Below, in pieces: positions 1 through 61,857 of a DNA stretch of 64,000 nt. How positions within the stretch are numbered: the first letter of the stretch is position 1; every line of letters begins with the position of its first letter. This DNA is from Deltaproteobacteria bacterium. Its GTDB lineage: Bacteria; Myxococcota_A; UBA796; UBA2385. A model generated the notes under the pieces. That model made no database searches. It was not told the origin of the DNA and saw only the letters and a list, made by a program, of their open reading frames with translations. The stretch spans positions 1 to 64,000 of the forward strand of contig JAEUKK010000142.1 of assembly GCA_016792625.1 (NCBI GenBank). The letters are read 5' to 3'. Position numbers and translations under genes: made by a program.

Positions 1-147
1 GTTTCCAAAGGGGGGCCTTTGCGGGCTGGCGCGCGGCGCTGCCATGCGCCGCGCGAAGCCTGCCCGCTGGCCCCACTTTGGCGGGGGATGCAAGGGGCCT
101 CGCAGGCCCCTTGCCCGGGGGCCTGGGGGCCGGCGGCCCCCGGCATC
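1..147 (-). repeat. R1 interspersed repeat, copy C (cut by window edge)
   Basis: This stretch is the reverse complement of the elements at 16207-16352 and 52610-52757. It opens at the window edge with the same TTTGGAAAC-type end and finishes at the GATGCC-type end near 147. It holds a long hairpin (arms about 21-39 and 46-67, with outer arms CCAAAGGGGGGCC and GGCCCCACTTTGG) and a perfect 11-bp palindrome with arms at 90-100 and 104-114. The palindrome differs from copy A at its outermost and innermost pairs, but both differences keep the pairing. I see no gene here. Confidence 0.85.
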
Positions 148-215
148 AACGACAAGAAGGATGCTGGTGCGCGCGACCGCCGTCGTTCACACGAGGAGCC
201 CCGCATCGCAGACAA

Positions 216-480
216 GCGCCGAGAGGAGCGAACTCGAAAAGAGCAGGCGGCCGCGCCGCACCTGTTCCCCGTGGCACACCGGCGCGGAGCAGCGGCGCCG
301 GGCACCGCCTCGTGGCGGCAGGCCGACCGGAGGGGGGATTGCGGCGAGCGCCGAGAGGAGCGAACTAGAAAAGAGCAGGCGGCCGCGCCGCCCTTGTTCC
401 CCGTGGCACACCGGGGAGGAGCGGCGGCGCCGGGCGCCGCCTCGCGGCGGCAGGCCGACCGGAGGGCGGGCCCGCGGGCC
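216..480. repeat. 132-bp tandem duplication in gene-free region
   Basis: Two head-to-tail copies of a unit of about 132 bp start at 216 and 348, each opening with GCGCCGAGAGGAGCGAACT. The copies differ at scattered bases, and the second runs into the R2 element. The whole stretch 1-590 shows no gene. Its open frames are low-complexity Arg/Ala/Pro strings typical of non-coding high-G+C DNA. Confidence 0.75.
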
Positions 481-4290: not shown

Positions 4291-7200
4291 GTGCCCACCT
4301 CCGATCCAGCCCAGCCGCCCGTCCCGCGCTCCCCCGAAGACGCCCCGCCCGCGCCCGAGGCGCCCGGGGCCGAGGCGCGCGCCGCCCTTGAGGCCGTCGA
4401 GGCCGTCGAGGCGGTGGTCGACCAGCTGCCGCCTGACCCGCAGGTCGGCGACGCTCCGCTCGAAGCGACCCTGGCGGCGACGCTCTCGTCCTTGGCTGGG
4501 CTCGACGGCCCGGGCCTCGAGGGCGCGGTGCGGGTCGCTGGCGCCCGGGTCGGCGCCGCGCCGGCAGCCCCTCCCCAAGGCCAAGGCCCGCTCGACCCCA
4601 CCGCCCCCACGCTCGAGCAGGTCGCCGCCCCCACCGGGGCCCGCGCCGGCCGCGCCAAGGCTGTTGTCGCCGAGAGCAGCGAGCTCGACGCTGTGCTCGA
4701 TGAGAAGCCGGCCCGCGCGGCGGGCGGGGCTGGCCCCGATGACCTGCGCCTCGACGACGCCCTGCGCGTCGAAGGCGGCCGGCTGCGCGCCCCGCCGCCC
4801 ACCTCCCCCGCGCCCCCGGGCAGCCTCGACCCCGAGGCCCCCGGCCTCGACGCCCTCGACCAGCTCAGCGGCGGCCGGCTCGGCGCCGCGGCCCCGCCCG
4901 ACGAAGCGGCTGAACCCGAAGAAGACCCGCTGGCCAAGGTCGAGAAGCCGGCCCGCCCGGCCCCGGCCGGCGCCTCGCCGATCGAGCTCTACGGCCACCC
5001 CACCCGCGAGGCCGACCCCCGCGGCGACGGCCCGCCCCCCGACGCCGGCTTCGAGTGGCCGGGAAAACCCGCCACCGACGCCGGTGAGCGCCTGTCGATG
5101 GGGCCTGTGCCCCAGGGCGAGGGCCCGAGCAAGCTTGAGGCGGTCGGCCAGCCCACCGCCGAGGCCAGCGAGCGCGTGCCCCTGCGCCCCGGCCCCAAGG
5201 CCGAGCCCGGCCCCGGCGGCGGCCCCGCGCCCTCGACCGAGGCCGCCGACCGGCTCTCCTTGGTCGAGCTGCCCGCCGCGCTCAAAGAGCCGAGCCCCAT
5301 CGAGGGCTACGGCCAGCCCACCGAAGACGCGGGCGAGCGCGTGCCCCTGCGCCTCAACCCGCCCGCCGAGGTCGGCCCCGGCGGCGGCCCCGCGCCCTCG
5401 ACCAAGGCCGCTGACCGCCTCTCGCTGGTCGAGCTGCCCGCCGCCCTGAAAGAGCCGAGCCCGCTCGAGTCCTACGGCCGCCCCGCGCCCGACGCCGCCG
5501 AGCGCGTGCCGCTCATCGAGCTGCACGCCGCGCTCAAAGAGCCGAGCCCGCTCGAGTCCATGGGCAGCCCGGGCCGCGACGCCAGCGAGCGGGTGGTGCT
5601 GCGCGACCAGGCCCCGGCGGGCGAGGGCCCGAGCCCGATCGAGGGCTATGGCCAGCCCGCCCGCGCCTCGACCGAGCGGGTGGCCCTGGTCGAGCTGCCC
5701 GCCGAGCAGGGCGGCCCGAGCCCGCTCGAAGGCTACGGCCGCCCCGCCGCCGACGCCGCCGAGCGCCTGCGCGCCGCCGAGGTGGGCCCCGGGCCAGCGG
5801 CCCCCTCGCCGCTCGAGAGCGTGGGTCAGCCGGGCAAAGACGCCGCAGAGCGCGTCATCCTCACCGACGAGGCGCCCGCCCCCGAGGGCCCCTCGGCGGT
5901 CGAGGGCTATGGCCAGCCCAGCCGCCTCGCCGCCGACCGCCTGCCGCTGGTCGAGCAAGACGAGGCGCCCGCTGGCCCCTCTCCGCTTGAGGGCATGGGC
6001 AGCCCCAGCCAAGATGCCGCGCAGCGCGTCATCCTCATCGAGCAGCCCGCCGCTCCCACCGGCCCCTCGCTGCTTGAGGGCATGGGCTCCCCCAGCCAAG
6101 ACGCCGCAGAGCGCGTCATCCTCGTCGAGCAGCCCGCCGAGCCCGCCGGCCCCTCGCTGCTTGAGAGCATGGGCTCCCCCAGCCAAGACGCTGCGCAGCG
6201 CGTCATCCTCGTCGAGCAGCCCGCCGATCCAGCGGGCCCCTCTCCCCTCGAGGGCCTGGGCCAGCCGCGCCCCGACGCCGCCGAGCGCGTGCAGCTCACC
6301 GATCAGGCCGCTCCGCCCGACGAGGGCTCGCGGGTCGAGGCCTATGGCCACCCCGCCCGCGACGCCGCCGAGCGCGTGCCGCTCGCCGATCAGGCCGCTC
6401 CGCCCGATGAGGGCTCGCGGGTCGAGGCCTACGGCCACCCCGCCCGCGACGCCGCCGAGCGCGTGCAGATCACCGATCAGGCCCCGGCGCCCGACGAGGG
6501 CTCGCGGGTCGAGGCCTATGGCCACCCCGCCCGCGACGCCGATGAGCGCATCGCCATGCGCCCCGATGCGCCGCCCGCCGAGCAGACCGCGCTCGAGGGC
6601 CTGGGGGGCGCGCCGCGCACCGACGCCGCCGAGCGGGTCGAGGTCAGCGCCGGCTACATCGACGGCCCCTCGGCCACCGGCCCGCTCGAGGGCTACCGCG
6701 ACCCCTCGGGCCAAAAGATCGACCGGGTCGATCTTCACCCCGACGACGAGCCGGCGCCCAACGACACCTTGGGCGCGCTCGGCGCCCCCTCGGCCCGCCG
6801 CGCCGACCGCCTGCGCCGCGTGGACGAGCCTGAAGACGAGCCTCCCGCCAGCCTCGACGCGCTGGGCGAGCCCTCGCCCCAGGCCGACGACCGGGTCGAG
6901 CTCTTCGGCCCCGCCGACCCCAAGCTGCCCGCCAGCACCATGGAGCAGGCCGCCCAGGCCTCGCGCCAGCGGGGCGACCGGGTGGGCGCGCCGACCGCCG
7001 AAGAGCTGGCCATCGCCGCCGCCGCGGCCAGCGAGCTCCGCCTCTCCACCAACCGCGAGGACCGCCTCGGTCGCCCCGACGACCAAGACCTCCCCCTGTC
7101 CACGTTGACCGGCCTCGAGAGCCGCTCCTTGATGGAGGCCGGCCGCCTCACCGCCCGCGAGCACCGCCCGGCGGCCTACGACAACCCCAACGGCCTCGAC

Positions 7201-8478
7201 GCGGTGATGCCCCACGCCGGCCTGCGCGGCGTCGACCGCATGCGCATGCCCGAGGCCGACGAGGACCTGCCCGTCGACCCGGCGCTCATCGGCCGCGTGC
7301 CGGTCATGCCCGAAGAGATCGAGCTGTGGGGTGATCTGCCGCCGAACGAGCGGGTCGGCGCCTGCGGTGAGCCCCGCCGCCGCCTCGGCGAGCGCACCCA
7401 CCACCGCCTCGACTTCCGCTTCCAGCGCTACGAGCTGCTCACCGTGCGCCGCGCGGTCTACGACTGCCCACTCTGCCCCGACGAAGAGCCGGTGGTGGCC
7501 ACGAGCCCGCGCTTCCTCGCCGGGGGTGTGCCCGTGGGCAACGGCCTGCTGGCCCAGCTGGTGGTCGCGCGCTTCGGCGACCACGGCAACCTCAGCGAGC
7601 TCGCCAACTCGATGAGCCGCTACGGCTTGGTCATCGAGGCCGACAAGCTCGACAGCGCCACCCGCAAGGCCGCCGCCGCGGTGCAGCCGATCATCGCGGC
7701 CATCCGGGCCGAGGTGAACGAGGCCAAGCGCGTGCACATCGACGCCCGCGGCCTGCCCACCCGCCGGCCGGGCCCCCAGCGCGACATCATCGGCGAGCTC
7801 TTTTGCGTCAGCGCCGATGATCAGCTCTACTGGGCGATCAAAGAGCCCGCCCAAGGTGGCGACCCCGGCAGCCCCGACCCGACCGAGGGCGCGGGCGGCC
7901 GCAAGGTGCGCGAGGGCGAGGTGGCCTGGAACCTGCTGCGCGACAAGCTCGGGTGGAGCCGCGAGGGCCGCTGGGGTGGCCTGCGTCACCGCCTGACCGT
8001 GGCCCTGATCACCGACCCGCAGCGGGCGGCCTACGGGCTGTTCTTGGTCGGGGCGCTGGGCCAAGCCGCTGGGCCCTCGGGTGACAAGGCCGATCTGGCG
8101 ACCCGCCAGCGCGCGCTGAAGACCTGGCTCGACGAGCAGCAGGCGGCGATGGACAGCCCGAGCACCGCGACGGCCCGGGCGGTCAGCTACGCGCTGCAGC
8201 TCTGGCCGCAGCTGCGCTACGTCGATGAGGCCGGCCGGCCGGTCGACGAGGGCGAGCCGCGGCGCTTCCCCAAGGCCTGGACCGCCCAGTGGGATCTGCA
8301 GAGCACCGCCGACCGCGAGGCCTTGACGACGTGGTGCACGCTGATCGGGTGCTGCCGCCGCCTCGGCCTGCGGCCCTGGGAGTACCTCTACGAGCTGTTT
8401 GAGGCCGTGGCCAACGACGCGATGCGCGAGCCCGCCGCCTGGACCCCGCGGGCCTGGGCCAAGGCCAGCGGCGCTTAG
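4291..8478 (+). CDS. giant 29-residue-repeat protein fused to an IS66 transposase-derived domain
   Basis: The product has 1395 residues. Residues 1-227 are Ala/Pro/Glu-rich. Residues about 228-902 are roughly 25 tandem units near SPLEGYGQPxRDAAERVxL plus a variable acidic/Pro tail, with a period close to 29. Residues about 1007-1385 resemble IS66 transposases: a partial zinc-finger region (ACGEPRRRLGER then CPLC), a GLLAQLVVARFGDH segment, VHIDARG where IS66 has the first catalytic Asp (D1151), and YALQLWPQLRYV (about 1300) plus RPWEYLYELF (about 1366) matching the IS66 C-terminal region. The CxAHxRR block and the DNxAAERALR block with the catalytic Glu are missing or rewritten, so I infer a non-catalytic, domesticated transposase domain. 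The start is GTG after GGGGAG. The gene stands alone between tsaC and queD, and its stop overlaps the convergent queD stop by two bases. Function unknown. Confidence 0.85.
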   Translation: MPTSDPAQPPVPRSPEDAPPAPEAPGAEARAALEAVEAVEAVVDQLPPDPQVGDAPLEATLAATLSSLAGLDGPGLEGAVRVAGARVGAAPAAPPQGQGPLDPTAPTLEQVAAPTGARAGRAKAVVAESSELDAVLDEKPARAAGGAGPDDLRLDDALRVEGGRLRAPPPTSPAPPGSLDPEAPGLDALDQLSGGRLGAAAPPDEAAEPEEDPLAKVEKPARPAPAGASPIELYGHPTREADPRGDGPPPDAGFEWPGKPATDAGERLSMGPVPQGEGPSKLEAVGQPTAEASERVPLRPGPKAEPGPGGGPAPSTEAADRLSLVELPAALKEPSPIEGYGQPTEDAGERVPLRLNPPAEVGPGGGPAPSTKAADRLSLVELPAALKEPSPLESYGRPAPDAAERVPLIELHAALKEPSPLESMGSPGRDASERVVLRDQAPAGEGPSPIEGYGQPARASTERVALVELPAEQGGPSPLEGYGRPAADAAERLRAAEVGPGPAAPSPLESVGQPGKDAAERVILTDEAPAPEGPSAVEGYGQPSRLAADRLPLVEQDEAPAGPSPLEGMGSPSQDAAQRVILIEQPAAPTGPSLLEGMGSPSQDAAERVILVEQPAEPAGPSLLESMGSPSQDAAQRVILVEQPADPAGPSPLEGLGQPRPDAAERVQLTDQAAPPDEGSRVEAYGHPARDAAERVPLADQAAPPDEGSRVEAYGHPARDAAERVQITDQAPAPDEGSRVEAYGHPARDADERIAMRPDAPPAEQTALEGLGGAPRTDAAERVEVSAGYIDGPSATGPLEGYRDPSGQKIDRVDLHPDDEPAPNDTLGALGAPSARRADRLRRVDEPEDEPPASLDALGEPSPQADDRVELFGPADPKLPASTMEQAAQASRQRGDRVGAPTAEELAIAAAAASELRLSTNREDRLGRPDDQDLPLSTLTGLESRSLMEAGRLTAREHRPAAYDNPNGLDAVMPHAGLRGVDRMRMPEADEDLPVDPALIGRVPVMPEEIELWGDLPPNERVGACGEPRRRLGERTHHRLDFRFQRYELLTVRRAVYDCPLCPDEEPVVATSPRFLAGGVPVGNGLLAQLVVARFGDHGNLSELANSMSRYGLVIEADKLDSATRKAAAAVQPIIAAIRAEVNEAKRVHIDARGLPTRRPGPQRDIIGELFCVSADDQLYWAIKEPAQGGDPGSPDPTEGAGGRKVREGEVAWNLLRDKLGWSREGRWGGLRHRLTVALITDPQRAAYGLFLVGALGQAAGPSGDKADLATRQRALKTWLDEQQAAMDSPSTATARAVSYALQLWPQLRYVDEAGRPVDEGEPRRFPKAWTAQWDLQSTADREALTTWCTLIGCCRRLGLRPWEYLYELFEAVANDAMREPAAWTPRAWAKASGA
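4972..6996 (+). repeat. 87-bp coding tandem repeat array
   Basis: About 25 in-frame units of close to 87 bp encode the 29-residue repeat. Most have drifted, but the three units starting at 6319, 6406 and 6493 are nearly identical in DNA, as are those at 5989, 6076 and 6163. This suggests recent local duplications inside an old array. Confidence 0.85.
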
Positions 8479-16104: not shown

Positions 16105-16206
16105 CGCGGTGTCGACCTCCTTCGCGCGAGCGGGCTCAGGCTTGGGTCGGTGGGCCTCGTGGCGGTGGCGAGCTTGATCGCGCGGGCCGGTGCACTCGTG
16201 TTCGGT

Positions 16207-16352
16207 GATGCCGGGGGCCGCCGGCCCCCAGACCCCCAGGCCAAGGGGCCCGCGGGGCCCCTTGGATCCCCCGCCAAGGGGGGCCGCGGGCAGGCTTCGC
16301 GCGGCGCATGGCAGCGCCGCGCGCCAGCCCGCAACGCCCCCCTTTGGAAACC
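16207..16352 (+). repeat. R1 interspersed repeat, copy A
   Basis: The element runs from GATGCCGGGGG to TTTGGAAACC. It contains a GGGGGCC/GGCCCCC palindrome, a perfect 11-bp palindrome (arms CCAAGGGGCCC and GGGCCCCTTGG at 16241-16265), and a long hairpin with a GCGCGGCGC-type stem around atggca. Similarity to copy B continues more weakly to about 16490. It lies in 16052-16852, a gene-free stretch between two convergent genes. Confidence 0.85.
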
Positions 16353-16572
16353 CCCGAGCCCGGCGCGGCCCGCTGCGGCTTTGGGCGATGAGGGGGCTCG
16401 CCGCGAAGGCCGCGGCTGATGCGGTTCGGGCGAGGTACCTAGTTCGGCGCGCGTTCGAACCGATTGGGTATCAGCTAGTCTTAGCTCGTCGCCGCGAAGG
16501 CCTCGGCTGCAGCGGGGGGTGGTGCAAACATGGCGCCAGACAGGCCTCAGCCGAAGCACCAGGCCGCGAAGA

Positions 16573-47854: not shown

Positions 47855-47865
47855 AACGAGGCCCC

Positions 47866-47917
47866 CGCGCCCGGCCGACCGGAGCGGGCCGCAGAGCGGC
47901 CGTCGCGCAGCGACCGA
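47866..47917 (-). repeat. R2 multi-hairpin repeat, copy 3
   Basis: The core CGTCGC-gca-GCGACC (47901-47915) is flanked by CCGACCGG-like DNA. It sits between the convergent HAD and asparaginase-like genes, in a 150-base G+C-rich gap without genes. Confidence 0.6.
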
Positions 47918-48004
47918 GCCGGGCGGACGGCGATCCCGCCGCAGGCGGAGCGCCGGCCGGGGCCCCGGCGACGCGCGGAGGGGGGCCGAAGGCGACCGAA
48001 CCGC

Positions 48005-50002
48005 TCAGCCAACCGGCCGGATCAAGCGCAGGTCCCAGCCCGGCGCCGCCTCGCTGTGCACGCCCAGCACCCGCAGCAGCCGGCCCGCCTCGTAGGCCCG
48101 GTTGTCGGTCTGGCCCCGCGGCGCGGTCGTGCGCACGCGCAGCTCGACCCCGCGCTCGACCGCCCCGCCCACCGCCGCGCACATCGGGTGGGCCTCGACC
48201 ACCGCGTCGCGCAGCAGCCGGCGGCCGATCAGGGCCGGGGCGGCGGCGAGCAGGGCCCCCCAGGGGTCGGCGGGCGGGCCCGCATCGACCGGCACCGAGA
48301 AGCGGGCCTTGTCGAGGGCGACGTGCAGCAGGTCGTTGACGAGCGCATCAGGGTGCTTGAGGCCCGGCGTGGCGGCCAGCGCCGCGGACAGGGCCGCGCG
48401 CAGGGCGGCGGCGAGGGCGGCGGCCTGCTGGGCCCGCGCCACGGCGGCCCGGGCGTCGGCCAGCGCGGTGCGCAGCAGGCGCGGATCGAGGGTGTAGCGC
48501 GCCTTGATGGCCTCAAGCAGACCATTCTCGGTGATGGCCGCGCCGAGCAGGCCCGCGATGACCTCGGCCTCGGCGGTGGCGTCGCCCGCCGCGCTCACCG
48601 CCGCGTCGAGGGCCGCGGGCGCGAGGGCCTCGGCCAGCGCCTGGCCCCAGCGCGCGGCGAGCGGCCCGCGGGCCAGCTCGGCCAAACCTTGGTTCGGCCC
48701 AGGCAAGTGACCATGGCCGAAGCCCACCAAGGTGAGGGTGGCCCGCCCCGCGCCCGCCCCGGCCTGCGCGCGCGCCGCGGCCTCGGCGACCACCTGCGGG
48801 GGCAGGCCCGGCCAGGCGACCACGAGGCCCCGCCCGGGCCGCTGCTCAGGGAAGGTCTCGTAGCGGATCCACTGGGGCAGGCGCAGGGTCTCGTAGTGCT
48901 CGCCGACGAAGCTCTGGGCCATCGCGGCCAGCAGCCCATCGAGCGAGAGCTCGCAGCCGAGCAGCCAGCTCAGCTTGAGGCGCGCGCTCTGGTGGCTGAG
49001 GCTCTTGTGCAGCAGCCCGACCCCGACGGGCGCGGGCCCGCCCGCCGAGAGGCCGTCGAAGGCCTCGCGGGCCCCGAGCAGCACCGGGTGGCCGGCGGCG
49101 CCGAGCGCGCGCAGTTCGTCGGCGAAACATTGAAACATCTTGTTATTCAGAAAGTTGCCTTGAACCACCAAGCCGCTGGGCCCGGCGGCCCGCACCCGCG
49201 CCGCCGCGTCGCGCAGCGCGCCCACCGGCGTGAAGGGGTCGAGCACCAGCAGCTCAGCCACGCCATAGGGCCCGACCCGCCGCGGCCAGGCCACCTCGGT
49301 CGACCCGCCGCGACCTTGGATGAAGGCCAACAGCTCATGACCGAGGCGCAAGGTGGCCGCCCCCCGCTTGTCGCGGTGCAGCCGCCCCACCGGCTCGGGT
49401 GAGCTGTGGAAGTAGCGGCCCTCGGCGTCGGGCGCGGTGCCCACCTTGCTCAGGCGGCTGGCGAGGTGCAGCTCTCCGCCGATCAGCGCGTAGACTCCGG
49501 GCGGCAGCGGCGCCTCGGGCGGGGCGCAGACCCCGGCGGCCACGGCGAGGCTGTCGATGAGGTTCTGCGCCGCGTCGCTGTGCGGGGCCCCCGGCGGGGC
49601 GTGGGCGCCGGTGAAGACCACCGGCACGCGCAGGTCGGCGCCGAGCTCCCAGGCCATCAGCGTGGCGGTGAACTGCATGGTGTCGGTGCCGTGCGTGACC
49701 ACCACACCGACCAGGTCATTGTTCTCGACGACCCGCCGCAGCTTGTCGCGCAGCGCGCCCCACTCGGCCTCGGCCACGTTGCTGCTGTCAGGCGGCCGGG
49801 CGAAGAGCTCGACCGGCAGCACGCGCAGGCGGGCCTGCAGGTGCGGCGCGTGCGTGGCCAGCAGGGCCTGCACCCCTTGGCCTGGCACGCCGCCCACCGA
49901 CATCGAGATGGTGCCGCCGGCGTTGATCACCGCCACCAGGGGCAGGTCATTGGGGGCGAAGCGCAGGGGCGCGGCCGGCGGCCGGGCAGGGGCCGCGCCC
50001 AC
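48005..50002 (-). CDS. asparaginase-like protein with a long C-terminal extension
   Basis: The 665-residue protein begins with an L-asparaginase/GatD-type domain (about 20-370). The catalytic set is visible: Thr31 in NAGGTIS, DSSN (72-75), Thr106-Asp107 in THGTDTM and Lys186 in SRLSKVG. The domain ends near SARLKLSWLLG. About 290 residues follow that I do not recognise, Ala-rich, with LTLVGFGHGHLPGPNQG and RTTAPRGQTDNRAYEAGRLL near the end. It probably hydrolyses asparagine or glutamine; the extension may regulate it or add a second function. The GTG start shares a base with the prfC stop (TAGTG), so the two form an operon. Confidence 0.78.
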   Translation of the reverse strand: MGAAPARPPAAPLRFAPNDLPLVAVINAGGTISMSVGGVPGQGVQALLATHAPHLQARLRVLPVELFARPPDSSNVAEAEWGALRDKLRRVVENNDLVGVVVTHGTDTMQFTATLMAWELGADLRVPVVFTGAHAPPGAPHSDAAQNLIDSLAVAAGVCAPPEAPLPPGVYALIGGELHLASRLSKVGTAPDAEGRYFHSSPEPVGRLHRDKRGAATLRLGHELLAFIQGRGGSTEVAWPRRVGPYGVAELLVLDPFTPVGALRDAAARVRAAGPSGLVVQGNFLNNKMFQCFADELRALGAAGHPVLLGAREAFDGLSAGGPAPVGVGLLHKSLSHQSARLKLSWLLGCELSLDGLLAAMAQSFVGEHYETLRLPQWIRYETFPEQRPGRGLVVAWPGLPPQVVAEAAARAQAGAGAGRATLTLVGFGHGHLPGPNQGLAELARGPLAARWGQALAEALAPAALDAAVSAAGDATAEAEVIAGLLGAAITENGLLEAIKARYTLDPRLLRTALADARAAVARAQQAAALAAALRAALSAALAATPGLKHPDALVNDLLHVALDKARFSVPVDAGPPADPWGALLAAAPALIGRRLLRDAVVEAHPMCAAVGGAVERGVELRVRTTAPRGQTDNRAYEAGRLLRVLGVHSEAAPGWDLRLIRPVG

Positions 50003-51848: not shown

Positions 51849-52526
51849 ATGGGCGTGCGGAGCATGATCAAGGACGTGGTGAAGGGCGCGCTGCGCACGG
51901 CTGGCCTCGGCTTCTTGTTGCCCAAGCGGGCCAGCGCGGCGCCGGTCGCGCCAGCACCCGCGCCGGTCGCGCCTGCGCCGGTGGCTGCGCCAGCGCCCAC
52001 GCCTACGCCCGCCAAGGCGGCAGAGCCCGCGCCCGCCAAGGCGGCAGAGCCCGCCAAGGCGGCAGAGCCCGCGTCCGCGAAGCCGGTCGAGCCCGTGAAG
52101 ACGGTGGAGGCCGCGCCCCCCGCGCCTGCGAAAGCCGAGCCCGCGAAGACGGTGGAGGCGACGCCCGCGAAGCCGGTGGAGGCGGCGCCTGCCGCGCCCG
52201 CGAAGGCCGAGCCCGCGAAGACGGTGGAGGCGACGCCCGCGAAGACGGTGGAGGCCGCGCCTGCCGCGCCCGCGAAGGCCGAGCCGGCGGAGAAGAAGCC
52301 CGCCAAGGGCAAGAAGGCGAAGGCCGAGCCCAAGGTGGCCGAGGCCGCCCCTGCAGCGGCGCCGGTCGCGGCTGCGCCTGCCGTGCCCGCGGGCGCACGA
52401 GAGCGCCAGTATGGCGGCAAGCGGCTGATCCCCGACAACTGCGGGAGCTGTGGGGCCGACCTCTGGGGCAACTGGCGGTGGAACCAAGGCCAATTTGTCT
52501 GCGGGAGCTGCGGAGCGCCGGTCTAG
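51849..52526 (+). CDS. Ala/Lys/Pro-repeat protein with C-terminal zinc ribbon
   Basis: The 225-residue protein has a short amphipathic start (MIKDVVKGALRTAGLGFLLPKR), a low-complexity region (about 28-180) of AKP-type repeats such as PAKTVEATPAKPVEAAPA, a Lys-rich stretch KKPAKGKKAKAEPK, then a zinc ribbon with CGSC and CGSC pairs around a Trp-rich loop (WGNWRWNQGQ). The Ala/Lys/Pro composition recalls H1-like nucleoid proteins, but the ribbon and the Glu content are unusual. Function unknown. The start is ATG after GGAGG. It stands alone, divergent from prfC. Confidence 0.7.
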   Translation: MGVRSMIKDVVKGALRTAGLGFLLPKRASAAPVAPAPAPVAPAPVAAPAPTPTPAKAAEPAPAKAAEPAKAAEPASAKPVEPVKTVEAAPPAPAKAEPAKTVEATPAKPVEAAPAAPAKAEPAKTVEATPAKTVEAAPAAPAKAEPAEKKPAKGKKAKAEPKVAEAAPAAAPVAAAPAVPAGARERQYGGKRLIPDNCGSCGADLWGNWRWNQGQFVCGSCGAPV

Positions 52527-52609: not shown

Positions 52610-52757
52610 GATGCCGGGGGTCTCCGACCCCCAGGCCCCCGGCCAAGGGGCCCGCGCGGCCCCTTGGATCCCCCGCCAAGGGGGGCCGGCGGGCAGGCTG
52701 GCGCGCGGCGCATGGCAGCGCCGCGCGCCAGCCCGCAATGGCCCCCCTTTGGAAACC
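52610..52757 (+). repeat. R1 interspersed repeat, copy B
   Basis: This copy matches copy A in order and orientation. The long hairpin is best preserved here, with a perfect 13-bp stem TGGCGCGCGGCGC around atggca. The 11-bp palindrome (52643-52667) has one mismatch at the innermost pair. Similarity to copy A continues through an ATGAGGGGGCTC block to about 52889. The gap 52527-52971 holds no gene I can support. Confidence 0.85.
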
Positions 52758-52867
52758 CCCCGGGAGCAGGCGCGACCCGCTGCTGCTGTGGGCAATGAGG
52801 GGGCTCACCGCGAAGACCTCGGCTGTCGCGGATGGGGTGAGGCACCGTGCCCCGAGCACGTTCGAGC

Positions 52868-52922
52868 CGAGTTAGTGTCAGCTCACATAACAGACTTGTT
52901 TCATATGTTTCGATAACTAAGT
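52868..52922. other. A+T-rich island without a gene
   Basis: This 55-base patch stands out in a genome otherwise nearly free of A+T runs. TTAGT and ACTAA arms bracket it at about 40 bases apart. It starts where the R1-related homology fades. Possible roles are a promoter, a protein-binding site or a small RNA. Confidence 0.4.
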
Positions 52923-56857: not shown

Positions 56858-56996
56858 GCGGCGGGCTCCAACGGGCGGCGGGCAGGTGCGCCTAGTGCGG
56901 CGAGCATAGCGCCGGCGAGGTCCGCGGGGGAGCATCGTGGGCCACGGCAGGGGTCGGGCGCCCGGGCGGCCCCCCGCCGGGCTCGGGCCGGCGGCC

Positions 56997-57057
56997 CTCG
57001 GTCGCTGCGCGACCGGCCTTGCGGCCGCCCTCTGGTCGGCCTGGCGCCGCGAGGCGA
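56997..57057 (+). repeat. R2 multi-hairpin repeat, copy 4
   Basis: The GGTCGC-tgc-GCGACC core (57000-57014), a GGCC/GGCC hairpin and a GGTCGGCCTGGCGCCGCGAG block follow each other, in reverse orientation to the other copies. It lies in the 371-base gene-free gap 56858-57228. Confidence 0.7.
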
Positions 57058-57118
57058 GGCCCCGCAGGATCGCGCAGCCCGGGGCACGGCGCAGCCCGGC
57101 CCCCCATCGCCTCGCGCG

Positions 57119-57228
57119 CGGCAGGGGGCGGAGCGGCCGCGCAGCGGGTCGGCCGCCCGCGGCCGACGGAGCGCAGCGACCCCGCGCAGCACCCGGCCCG
57201 CCGGGCGGTGGCCCGGCGGGGCCGCCCC
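57119..57228 (-). repeat. R3 3'-end element, second site
   Basis: About 110 bases match the element at 16653-16870, including GACGGAGCGCAGCGACCCCG and CAGCACCCGGCCCG. It begins directly at the stop codon of the lipoprotein gene, as the other does at the GGDEF gene, and folds into strong G+C hairpins. A 3'-end or terminator role is likely. Confidence 0.7.
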
Positions 57229-60200
57229 TTAGAGCAGGCCGGTCAGCTGCTTGGTGGTGCCGGTGGTGGTGTTGCCCGCGTTGTCGTAGGCGCACAGCCG
57301 GTAGGTGTACTTACGGCCGGCCACCTGCCCGGTGTGCTCGAAGACGCGGTCGGGGCCGTTGTAGAGCACGGTGCCCGAGGTGCAGCCCGAGGCCGGGGAC
57401 GAGGTGCCTTCGCGCACCACCAGCTTGTAGCCGGCGAGGCCCGAGCTGGCGTCGGTCGAGGCCGTCCAGCTCAGGTTGCTGACCCCGCCCACCGCCGCGG
57501 TGCCCGAGAGCGTCGAGACCGTCGGCGCGGTGGTCTCGTAGATGATCGTGTCGGTCACGTTGGCGCTGGTGTTGCCGTAGCGGTCGCGGAACTTCACGTA
57601 GACCGTCTTGGTGCCCGCCCCCGAGGACAGCGTGTGGGTCTTCGTCGTCGCGTAGGTCACCCAGCTCGTGCAGCTGGTCGTGTTGCTCACGCACATCTGG
57701 GTCACGCCCGAGTCGTCGGTGGCCGAGATGGTCAGCGTGCTGGCCGTGGTCTTCGTGCCGATGGCGCCCGCGTTGATGCTCAGGCTGCCGCCCGCGGGGG
57801 CGGTGGTGTCGGCCGTGCTGACCAAGAAGGTCGTGCCCGCCGACATATTGCCCGCCGCGTCGATCGCGCAGACCCGCACGCCGTAGACCTGCCCGCCGAG
57901 CAGGCCGGTGATGTCGGCCGCGCTGTCGGCGCCGCTGTAGCCCAGCGTGCCGGTCGAGCAGCTCGAAGGCGGCGTGCTCAGCGCGTAGACCGCGCGGTAG
58001 CTGGCCACGCCCGAGTCGGCGTCGGAATAGTCCGACCACTCGAAGTGGGCGGTGCGGTCTGAGGTGGCGACGCCGGTGGCGTCTCCGTCGACGGGCAGCA
58101 CCGTCTCGACCTGGATGCTGTCGCTCACCGGCGTGAGGCTGCGGTTGCCCCAGGTGTCTTCGAACCAGGCGTAGAGGGTCTGCTCGCCGCTGATCCCGGC
58201 GAGGGTGGCGCTGACCGGGCCGGGGTAGGCCTCCCACGCGGTGCAGCTGTCGGGGCTGTCCGACACGCAGACCTGGGCCACGCCGGTCTCGTCGGTGGCG
58301 TCGGCGGTCACCGAGACGCTGGCCGTGTTCGTCCAGCCGGCGCCGGCGTTGATCGTGATGCTACCGACCGGGCCGTCAAACTCGGGCAGGGGCCGCACCA
58401 CCAGCGTGTCGCCGACCGAGACATTGCCCACCGCGTCGACCGCGCAGAGGCGCAGGGCGTAGCGCTGGCCGGGGGTGAGGTCGGTGAGGGTGGTGAGGTC
58501 CTCGACGCCCTCCCAGCTGTATTCGCCCGAGGCGCAGTCTTCGGGGGCCTCGGTGCCCGCGTTGTAGGCGATGCGGTAGCCCGCGAGGCCGCTGCCGGTG
58601 TCGAAGGCGCCCGACCAGGAGAGGTCGACCGTGGTTCCAGTCACGCCATCTTCGACGAGGGTGGCGTCTTCAGGCACGGTCTGGTCGAGCTGGAGGCTGT
58701 CGCTGGCCGGCGCGAGGCTCTCGTTGCCGTAGCTGTCGCGGAACCAGACGTTGACCGTGTGCACGCCGTCGCCCGCCTCGATGCTGAACGGCAGGCTGGG
58801 CTCGTAGGGCTGCCAGTCGCTGCAGCTCTCGGCCTCGCTGAAGCAGACCTCGGCGACCCCTGCGGTGTCGGTGGCGCTGCTCTCGACGCTGACCTCGAGG
58901 CTGCCGGTGAACTCGGCGCCGCCGTCGAGGCTGACCAGCCCGTCGATCGGGGCGGTGGCGTCGATGGTCATCCGGGTCTCGAGCACGCCCGGCGACAGGT
59001 TGCCGGCGAGGTCGAGGGCGCAGACCCGCACGTTGACCGTGGTGCCCAAGGCCAGCTCAGCCAGGGCGGCCGAGGTGTCGGCGCCGCGGTAGAGCTCTTC
59101 ACCCTCAGTGCAGCTGTCGGGAGCGACCTCACCCACGGTGTAGACGACGACATAGGACGCGAGGCCCGTGGTCTCGTCCAAGAAGCCCGACCAGTCGGCG
59201 GTGAGCGTGGTGTCGTCGGACTGGGCCAAGCTCAGCTCGCCGTCGAGCGGCGCGGCGCGGTCGACGGTGATCTCGGCTTCAAGCGGCGCTTCGCTGACGT
59301 TCCCGATGCCGTCGCGGAACCAAGCGTAGAGGGTGAGCGGGCCGTCTTCACCCTCGGGGACCTCCCAGGTGGCGGCGGTGTCGTAGGCCACCCAATCCTC
59401 GCAGAGGTCGGGGTCGTTCGAGATGCACATCTCGGCGACGCCGTCGGCGTCTTCGGCGTCGAGGGTGAGGTCGAGCACGCTGTCGGCGGTGTAGAGCTCA
59501 CCTTCGTTGATTAGCAGCCCCGCGCCCGCCGGCCCCTCGGCGTTGTCGGCGGTCGAGGCCAGCAGCGTCACGCCGGCCGAGATGTTGCCCACCGTGTCGA
59601 CGGCGCAGACGCGCAGGCTGTAGGCCTGCCCCGGGCGCAGGCCCGAGACCGTGGCCTGCTCACCCGGGCCTGAGAAGCCCACCCGCCCCGCCGTGCAGCT
59701 GGCCGGGGCGCGCAGCCCCGCGGCATAGGTCACGATGTAGGAGGCCACGTCGGTGTGCACATCGCTGAACCCAGCCCACTGCACGTCAATCTCGCTGCCG
59801 CTGGCCGTGCTCGCCTCGGCGGTGCCGTTCACCGGGCGGGTCTGGTCTTGCAGCACCGTGTCGCTGACCGCGGCGGTGGTGACGTTGTTGTAGACGTCTT
59901 TGAAGAAGGCGCGCACGGTGCGGTTGCCCGTGCCGCCGCTGAGCGTCCAGGTCTTGGTGGTCGCGTAGGTCGTCCACGCCGTGCAGGTGGTGGAGTTGGT
60001 CAAGCAGACGTGGCTGACCCGGGTGTCGTCCTCAGCGGAGAGGGTGAGGGTCACCCGGGCGCCCTTGACCGCGGCCGCGCCGCCGGCGATCTCGACCGAG
60101 CCGCCGGTGGGGGCGTTGTACTCGGGGGCCGGGCGGCCGCTGACCACCTTGCCCGACGAGATGTTGCCCGCCGCGTCGACCGCGCAGACCCGCCAGCTGT

Positions 60201-61857
60201 AGGTCAGGCCGTCGACCAGGCCGGTGCGGGTGAAGTCACCGTCGGCGCTGGTCATCACCGCCCGGCCGGTGCAGCTCGAGGGCGCGCGGATGCCGGTGGC
60301 CTGCATGAGCTTGTACGAGGCCACGCCGCTGAGCGCGTCGGTGAAGCCGGTGGCGGTGATCTGCGCGGTGCCCGCGCTGGTGGTGATGCCCAGGGTGCCG
60401 TTGACCGGCTTGGTCAGGTCGAGCCCGATGCTGTCGCTGACCGGGGCCGCGGTGACGTTGCCCATCGTGTCGCGGTACCAGGCGTTGACCGTGTGGGTGC
60501 CGTTGGAGCGGCGGATCGCCGCGCGCACGGTCGGGCGGTTGGCCACCCAGCTCGTGCAGCTGGCCGCCTCGCTGAGGCAGATGTGGCTGACCCCGCTCGG
60601 GTCGGTGGCCGCGGTGGTGACGGTCAGGCTGGCCGAGTTGGTCCAGGCGGCGCCGCCGTTGAGCTCGATCGAGGCGTCGGTGGGCGCGTCGTACTCGCTG
60701 GCCGGCCGCGCGGTGACCGTCGCCCCGGCAGAGATGTTGCCGGCGCCGTCGATCGCGCACAGCCGCCAGGCGTAGGTGGTGCCATCGGTGAGCCCGGTGA
60801 CCGTGGTGCTCGCGCCCGTGCCGCGCCAGGCCTCGGTGCCCGCGGTGCAGGAGGAGGGCGGGGTGGTGCCTGTCGCGCGCCGCAGCACGTACTCGGCGAT
60901 GCCCGTGCCCGGGTCGGCGAAGCCCGACCAGCTGAACTCGACCTCGCCGCTGCCCGCGGTCGCGGTCAGGGTGCCGTCGGTGGGGCGGGTCGCGTCGTAG
61001 ATGATCGTGTCAGTGACCGGATCGGAGACATTGCCCGCCGCGTCGCGAAAGCGCACGTAGACGGTGCGGGGCCCGGCGGCGCCCGAGAGGGAGGTGGCGC
61101 CCGTGGACGCGTAGCTGACCCATGAGCTGCAGGAGCTCGACTGGCTCACGCACATCTGGGTGACCGCGGTGTCGTCGGTGGCCGAGAGGGCGAGGCTGAC
61201 CCGCGAGGCGCGGGTGGTGGCGTCGCCGCCGTTGATCACCACCGAGACGCCGACCGGCGCGGTGGTGTCGCCGCTGGTCGAGGCCGCGGGGCGGGCGCCG
61301 CCCACCGCGCCGCCCGCCACCGCCGGCGCGCAGCGCTCGGCCTCTTCTTCGGTCAGCGGGCGCTCATCAAGGCGGTGCAGGCCGCCCCCGGGGCCCGCCT
61401 CGGCGAGCAGGGCGGCGAGCAGGGCCTCGCCCTCGGCGCCGACCAGGAGCGCCCGCCCGCCCTCGGGGCCCCCGCACCAAGACAGCTGCGCGGCGAGCCG
61501 CCGCGGCAGCTCACCCTCGAGCTGCACGCCCGCCGCCCCGCCGGCCCGCAGCTGGGCGCGCACCGGCGCGAGGGCCTCGATCAAGTCGAGCGCGCCCGCC
61601 GGGCGGACGGCCTCGCCCGTGTCGCCCCACCGCTCGTCGCCGGCCCCCTCGCCCAGCGGGGGCGCCGCGTCATCGGCCTCGTCGTCGGCCAGGGCCGCCG
61701 CAGCGCCGGTGTCGAGGGCCTGCGCGCCGGCCTCGGCGCCGCCGCCCACGACGACCCGATCGGCCTCGCCCACGCCGTCGACCGCCCGCTCGCAGGCAGA
61801 GAGGCCGCAGAGCAGCGTGATGATGCGGAGAGCGGCGTGGTTCTGGCGCAGCGACAT
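57229..61857 (-). CDS. very large Ig-like/FN3-repeat lipoprotein
   Basis: The 1542-residue protein has a lipoprotein signal (hydrophobic TLLCGLSAC, lipobox Cys22), an acidic unstructured part (about 30-195) and seven repeats of about 190 residues each, starting near residue 198. Every repeat pairs an Ig-like domain, with a C-x-S-x4-C-x2-W core and VYVRFRDxxGNxS, and a FN3-like domain with YxxxxCAxDxxGNxS and SWSGFxD. Each carries paired Cys. It is probably exported to the outer membrane surface as an adhesin or structural protein. Repeats differ enough that the array is old. The start is ATG; the leader contains a perfect hairpin. Confidence 0.82.
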   Translation of the reverse strand: MSLRQNHAALRIITLLCGLSACERAVDGVGEADRVVVGGGAEAGAQALDTGAAAALADDEADDAAPPLGEGAGDERWGDTGEAVRPAGALDLIEALAPVRAQLRAGGAAGVQLEGELPRRLAAQLSWCGGPEGGRALLVGAEGEALLAALLAEAGPGGGLHRLDERPLTEEEAERCAPAVAGGAVGGARPAASTSGDTTAPVGVSVVINGGDATTRASRVSLALSATDDTAVTQMCVSQSSSCSSWVSYASTGATSLSGAAGPRTVYVRFRDAAGNVSDPVTDTIIYDATRPTDGTLTATAGSGEVEFSWSGFADPGTGIAEYVLRRATGTTPPSSCTAGTEAWRGTGASTTVTGLTDGTTYAWRLCAIDGAGNISAGATVTARPASEYDAPTDASIELNGGAAWTNSASLTVTTAATDPSGVSHICLSEAASCTSWVANRPTVRAAIRRSNGTHTVNAWYRDTMGNVTAAPVSDSIGLDLTKPVNGTLGITTSAGTAQITATGFTDALSGVASYKLMQATGIRAPSSCTGRAVMTSADGDFTRTGLVDGLTYSWRVCAVDAAGNISSGKVVSGRPAPEYNAPTGGSVEIAGGAAAVKGARVTLTLSAEDDTRVSHVCLTNSTTCTAWTTYATTKTWTLSGGTGNRTVRAFFKDVYNNVTTAAVSDTVLQDQTRPVNGTAEASTASGSEIDVQWAGFSDVHTDVASYIVTYAAGLRAPASCTAGRVGFSGPGEQATVSGLRPGQAYSLRVCAVDTVGNISAGVTLLASTADNAEGPAGAGLLINEGELYTADSVLDLTLDAEDADGVAEMCISNDPDLCEDWVAYDTAATWEVPEGEDGPLTLYAWFRDGIGNVSEAPLEAEITVDRAAPLDGELSLAQSDDTTLTADWSGFLDETTGLASYVVVYTVGEVAPDSCTEGEELYRGADTSAALAELALGTTVNVRVCALDLAGNLSPGVLETRMTIDATAPIDGLVSLDGGAEFTGSLEVSVESSATDTAGVAEVCFSEAESCSDWQPYEPSLPFSIEAGDGVHTVNVWFRDSYGNESLAPASDSLQLDQTVPEDATLVEDGVTGTTVDLSWSGAFDTGSGLAGYRIAYNAGTEAPEDCASGEYSWEGVEDLTTLTDLTPGQRYALRLCAVDAVGNVSVGDTLVVRPLPEFDGPVGSITINAGAGWTNTASVSVTADATDETGVAQVCVSDSPDSCTAWEAYPGPVSATLAGISGEQTLYAWFEDTWGNRSLTPVSDSIQVETVLPVDGDATGVATSDRTAHFEWSDYSDADSGVASYRAVYALSTPPSSCSTGTLGYSGADSAADITGLLGGQVYGVRVCAIDAAGNMSAGTTFLVSTADTTAPAGGSLSINAGAIGTKTTASTLTISATDDSGVTQMCVSNTTSCTSWVTYATTKTHTLSSGAGTKTVYVKFRDRYGNTSANVTDTIIYETTAPTVSTLSGTAAVGGVSNLSWTASTDASSGLAGYKLVVREGTSSPASGCTSGTVLYNGPDRVFEHTGQVAGRKYTYRLCAYDNAGNTTTGTTKQLTGLL

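Follow-up and report, generated by a model that had tools for sequence, protein, structure and literature searches.

R1, a three-hairpin element of about 147 nt present three times in the window (the whole 64,000-nt stretch analysed here, from a Deltaproteobacteria bacterium), is repeated dozens of times in the host genome and is the core of a longer unit measuring about 375 nt. We hold, with slightly better than even confidence, that this unit is a non-coding, non-autonomous MITE-like repeat spread in trans by a probable IS630-type transposase, with a core kept alike most simply by conversion; on the best reading of the data, R1 would be classed among interspersed palindromic repeats as a new, MITE-like family. 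Among the origins suggested in a preliminary description of the window, a MITE-like mobile repeat is the best supported, by apparent terminal inverted repeats in a young subset of copies, a fixed length, placement between convergent genes and absence at orthologous gene ends of a sister species.

Copies in the window and in the host genome

All three copies, A, B and C (Table 1), were confirmed in the sequence, as were the GATGCC start and the TTTGGAAAC end common to them. The window consists of the first bases of contig C89, and copy A is cut at contig base 1, its 3' side being missing. A paired change in the arms of the palindrome, reported in the preliminary description, does exist, but was assigned there to the wrong copy. 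Specifically, the arms read GCAAGGGGCCT/AGGCCCCTTGC in copy A and CCAAGGGGCCC/GGGCCCCTTGG in copy B, whereas the innermost pair of copy C is broken, with C opposite C, and the paired change is therefore that of A against B.

Table 1. Positions of R1 cores, arms and hairpins in the window
Feature	Position	Strand	Evidence
Copy A core, three hairpins, 3' side truncated	1..147	-	covariance model, 157.6 bits
Copy A left arm, diverged	148..242	-	28/48 matches with the consensus of the left end at -95, against at most 26 after shuffling
Copy B left arm, diverged	16111..16206	+	30/48 matches at -96
Copy B core	16207..16352	+	covariance model, 138.5 bits
Copy B H1	16213-16229	+	folding
Copy B H2 palindrome	near 16241-16265	+	folding
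Copy B H3, long hairpin with ATGGCA loop	near 16274-16348	+	folding
Copy B R2 module and right arm, end near 16483	16362..16483	+	R2 GGGCGATGAGGGGG..CGCCGCGAAGGCC at 16383-16411
Copy C core	52610..52757	+	covariance model, 143 bits
Copy C R2 module and right arm	52767..52890	+	R2 at 52790-52818; right arm, 26/33 matches to right-end consensus at +106

In the host assembly (7.26 Mb, 206 contigs, 92% complete), BLASTN detected at least about 40 near full-length copies, with E values down to 1e-79, and a covariance model derived from 35 copies gave 85 matches at E<=1e-3, some of which are halves split between contigs. These numbers are far above chance, and R1 is not confined to the three copies from which it was described, dozens more being dispersed through the genome at about one every 85 kb. 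By hand count, R1 lies within about 250 nt of about 36 of the 412 contig ends of the host genome, and is a repeat that breaks assemblies. A few copies form inverted tail-to-tail pairs a few hundred nucleotides apart (C115:52104+/52551-, C173:494+/845- and C5:8778+/9132-).

Beyond the host, one diverged R1 (55 bits) was located at a contig end of G001 (MAG Deltaproteobacteria bacterium RE-23may17-226), a sister species in the same genus, with the same three-hairpin layout and a shorter third hairpin. The covariance model did not find R1 in 56 other genomes of the order, BLASTN against other genera of the order returned nothing except short marginal fragments, and searches of plasmids and phages revealed no homologues. 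A pattern scan of GTDB contigs, among which the host genome may be left out, detected the sister MAG only.

The window also contains a different intergenic repeat family, unrelated to R1, at 56955-57228, 47860-48014 and 215-546, the first two of which match many places in G001 at about 75-85% identity; several stretches of the window are related to this family. The window further has a very large minus-strand ORF (57229-61857) with tandem repeats of about 190 aa, spaced 573-579 nt apart.

Structure of the core and covariation of its stems

The core is 141-147 nt long and comprises three GC-rich hairpins: H1, of 5-8 bp; H2, the 11-bp palindrome with a 3-nt loop; and H3, a long hairpin containing an A-A mismatch, a TTC bulge and the ATGGCA loop. 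The loop, the mismatch and the 3-nt bulge are nearly invariant across copies. Folding of copy B gave the three hairpins with z-scores of -4.5 on the plus strand and -4.4 on the minus strand. The copies at C115:52104 and C173:494 have an H3 of other sequence in the same layout, whose GCGGCGATGCGCCGC is also present in the sister species.

Changes on both sides of a pair are found genome-wide. In 35 close copies, six pairs were altered on both sides, giving 29 cells versus 6.4 in shuffles; in 60 distinct copies, the alignment of which was fitted to the structure, both-side changes were found in 17 of 48 pairs (93 cells; shuffles gave 27 and slid controls 4-12). The stem positions thus do not vary independently, and the earlier claim of paired changes holds well beyond the window. 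The interpretation of these changes as selection on folding stands less well, since the paired variants are mostly subfamily variants spread among sites and therefore do not simply represent many independent selected events. With one mostly G-U column pair excluded, we counted 12 G-U cells versus 16 A-C cells; G-U cells are thus not in excess. Folding at the RNA level is not indicated on either strand; DNA palindromes or arm-templated correction explain the covariation equally well, and constraint on DNA hairpins fits it equally well or better. The curated covariance models of Rfam gave no match to R1 either, and the structured RNA named as one option in the preliminary description is not specifically supported.

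The larger unit

The unit of which R1 is the core consists of a 96-nt left arm, the core itself, and an R2 module and right arm that jointly span about 137 nt. In many copies the left end, TCATACCGGCTTCGCTTGATTCGGCTCG, is located 95-97 nt upstream of the core; its matches are graded from 46/48 down to about 28 and then pass into the shuffled range. The right end, CCGAGCCGAGTCAGTGTCAGCCCGTATCA, starts about 104-107 nt downstream of the core. Both ends are present in seven copies, six of which measure 373-377 nt and the seventh 386 nt. In copies with other flanks, positions within the final 61 nt of the left arm are still conserved, weakly but significantly. The gene upstream of copy C (51849-52526), which encodes Lys-Pro-Ala-Glu-rich repeats, overlaps with its end the expected position of the left arm of that copy.

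In a younger subset of copies, the unit appears to be bounded by imperfect terminal inverted repeats, about 27 bp long and set at fixed distances. The consensus sequences of the two ends are inverted repeats of each other with a p of about 1e-4, an optimistic value since the consensus was written by eye from the copies. Taken singly, the similarity of the two ends is clear in L028, weak in L005 and L020 and not significant in the four other both-end copies, and inverted-repeat ends are not evident in about two thirds of all copies.

The R2 module was found 45 times, beside R1 or at a contig end wherever we looked, and is present 1-4 times per element, sometimes in tandem. For example, tandem R2 arrays with a period of about 76-80 nt are present at contig ends at C103:7754-8022 (L086), where the array adjoins R1, and at C37:6642-6822 (L087). 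Left arms can also be duplicated in tandem, as in L009/L011 (C196:40984 and 41370), L016 and L038, by a copy-specific unit of about 60-77 nt that runs into the start of the core.

Divergence of core and arms

The mean pairwise identity of the copies is 0.93 in the core versus 0.59 in the left arm, shuffled sequence giving 0.56. Core identity correlates with arm identity at 0.21 on the left and -0.03 on the right side, 99%-identical cores sit within unrelated arms, and all four combinations of variants occur in 263 of 595 (44%) pairs of variable core sites. Old decayed units, in other words, carry young-looking cores, and 93% identity beside arms at random level means that the core has been either homogenised or separately selected. 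This likeness could stem from gene conversion, from strong selection or from a core that moves independently; the shared subfamily variants favour copying, and gene conversion of the cores is what we infer. Tentatively, gene conversion may rewrite or spread the core among dozens of sites regardless of the flanks, in which case the covariation would be only apparent and no evidence of RNA function.

Genomic placement

Genes were called with our own codon-based gene caller, and only 1 of 61 copies was overlain by a called gene. Where R1 had genes on both sides, these were convergent in 26 cases, co-directional in 15 and divergent in one, whereas R1-free gene pairs were convergent in 12, co-directional in 58 and divergent in 13 (convergent placement, 26/42 versus 12/83; Fisher p 1e-7). 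Among right-hand neighbours, 85% had the 3' end pointing towards R1, and among left-hand neighbours 71%. A bias to convergent genes has also been published for pneumococcal RUP, BOX, SPRITE and IS elements, where it was read as suggestive of parasitic mobile elements (PMC3049150). In G001, no R1 was found behind the orthologues of either flanking gene of site B or of the gene to the right of site C, but the neighbours of these orthologues differ from those in the host, and neither site is a clean empty site.

Search for a mobilising element

The consensus sequences of both ends are similar to ATACCGGCCGTCTCTGATTCGGATCG at contig C202 (p 5e-5), a sequence directly adjoining the start of a decayed short ORF. 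The product of this ORF shares a weak similarity (41% identity over 46 aa, E 0.02) with plasmid proteins, several of which are annotated as IS630 family transposase; it had no hit in Pfam or NCBIfam. This decayed N-terminal fragment is the sole trace of an IS630 transposase in the assembly, and the IS630 DDE domain (DDE_3, PF13358) had no match in the 92%-complete assembly. As an autonomous partner was tested for and not found, membership of an IS630-derived class is not established; gaps in the assembly may hide the autonomous element. At the ends of the units, inspection by eye revealed TA or a one-step variant in most cases and no convincing longer target-site duplication.

Two other transposase families were considered. 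The RAYT family (Y1_Tnp, PF01797) had no match in the 92%-complete assembly, with positive controls, and an origin as a REP-like element with RAYT, another option of the preliminary description, was rejected because the Y1 transposase is absent from the assembly. An end sequence near-identical to that at C202 borders an IS66 TnpA fragment at C166; IS66 was rejected as the mobiliser because the 8 kb examined at the open-frame TnpC of C41 contained no sequence closely matching the R1 ends. A third IS66 hit (window 7534-7821) is probably spurious; it lies inside a 1396-aa ORF (4291-8478) that consists partly of 29-aa repeats with an 87-nt period.

R1 would have spread most likely by transposition in trans, the mobiliser probably being an IS630-type transposase that acted on the terminal inverted repeats of about 27 bp; its autonomous partner would be an intact IS with the ends ATACCGGC..TGATTCGG. 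Insertions would have survived mainly in intergenic regions at gene tails, chiefly between convergent genes, where they may do little harm. Once inserted, the arms would decay and the hairpin core would be kept alike, the simplest means being gene conversion from one copy to another together with arm-templated correction of the palindromes, with selection perhaps also contributing.

Comparison with known repeats

R1 resembles RUP of Streptococcus pneumoniae in having many folded intergenic copies enriched between convergent genes and ends that apparently resemble an IS630-type element, with TA in most of them. However, RUP is a 107-bp MITE of IS630-Spn1 with clear ends and a named partner (PMC2229807, PMC3049150), whereas R1 belongs to a unit of about 375 nt, the ends of which have decayed in most copies and an intact partner of which was not found in the assembly. 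Like the Correia/NEMIS elements of Neisseria, R1 is a non-autonomous dispersed stem-loop repeat beside genes with several subfamilies; Correia elements are 107-155 bp long with terminal repeats (PMC2229807), but in R1 the triple-hairpin core is more conserved than the ends. BOX shares with R1 a modular build of fixed parts and a tandemly repeated module, R2 in the case of R1 (PMC3049150), but differs in module order and ends, and is likened by layout, not by sequence relation. We take the resemblance to RUP, Correia and BOX to be one of behaviour.

REP/BIME elements, like R1, are located near gene 3' ends. They are palindromic and extragenic and sometimes occur as inverted pairs, as does R1, but a REP is a single short hairpin and is associated with a Y1 transposase (PMC2817692), which is absent from this assembly.

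Alternative explanations

The orientation of neighbouring genes, most of which aim their 3' ends at R1, could also be explained if R1 were a functional 3'-end element, i.e. a bidirectional terminator or an RNA-stabilising or processing block, with the core selected since each site uses it. The far higher conservation of the core than of the arms, the very stable hairpins on both strands and the nearly invariant loop, mismatch and bulge would agree with such a function. We nevertheless consider it unlikely: a search for an intrinsic terminator or promoter at copy B found neither, no U-tract terminators being found near it, G-U pairs are not in excess over A-C, R1 is absent at the corresponding gene ends of the sister species, and selection alone does not account for 99%-identical subfamily cores at unrelated sites, which call for recent copying. 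It is hard to believe that the copies represent a multicopy small RNA gene family; the structure and covariation would suit such genes, but there is no Rfam match, a sigma-70 promoter was not found at copy B and no strand asymmetry was seen.

Two explanations at the DNA level seem to us less probable than a 3'-end element. Cores shared without their arms, and hairpins that are similar, in their conserved bulges and loop, to the substrates of single-strand transposases, suggest that the core might be the mobile unit, i.e. a single-stranded hairpin mover of the IS200/IS605, REP or attC-like type that enters or replaces hairpins at resident arm sites. This is rather improbable, as no Y1_Tnp family protein was found in the genome and both arms stand in fixed register with the core and are therefore parts of one unit with it. 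It is still more doubtful that R1 is a site, comparable with BIME and kept as a DNA cruciform or palindrome, at which a chromosome-organising or DNA-bending protein binds; this would fit the strand-symmetric covariation, the dispersal of copies at about one every 85 kb and the occasional inverted pairs such as that at C115, but lacks a protein candidate, and at the two sites examined the positions are not conserved in the sister species.

Implications

With R1, an uncultured deltaproteobacterial genus gains a repeat family restricted to its lineage. R1 is also a clean example of a multicopy repeat in which covariation is strong although an RNA signature is lacking, which calls for caution in covariation-based RNA discovery. 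If the conversion of cores independently of their flanks is true, R1 would represent concerted evolution of a 147-nt palindromic core in a hairpin repeat dispersed through a bacterial genome. That a near-identical core is decoupled from decayed arms can be put to the test, and would reveal how short palindromes are homogenised in bacteria.
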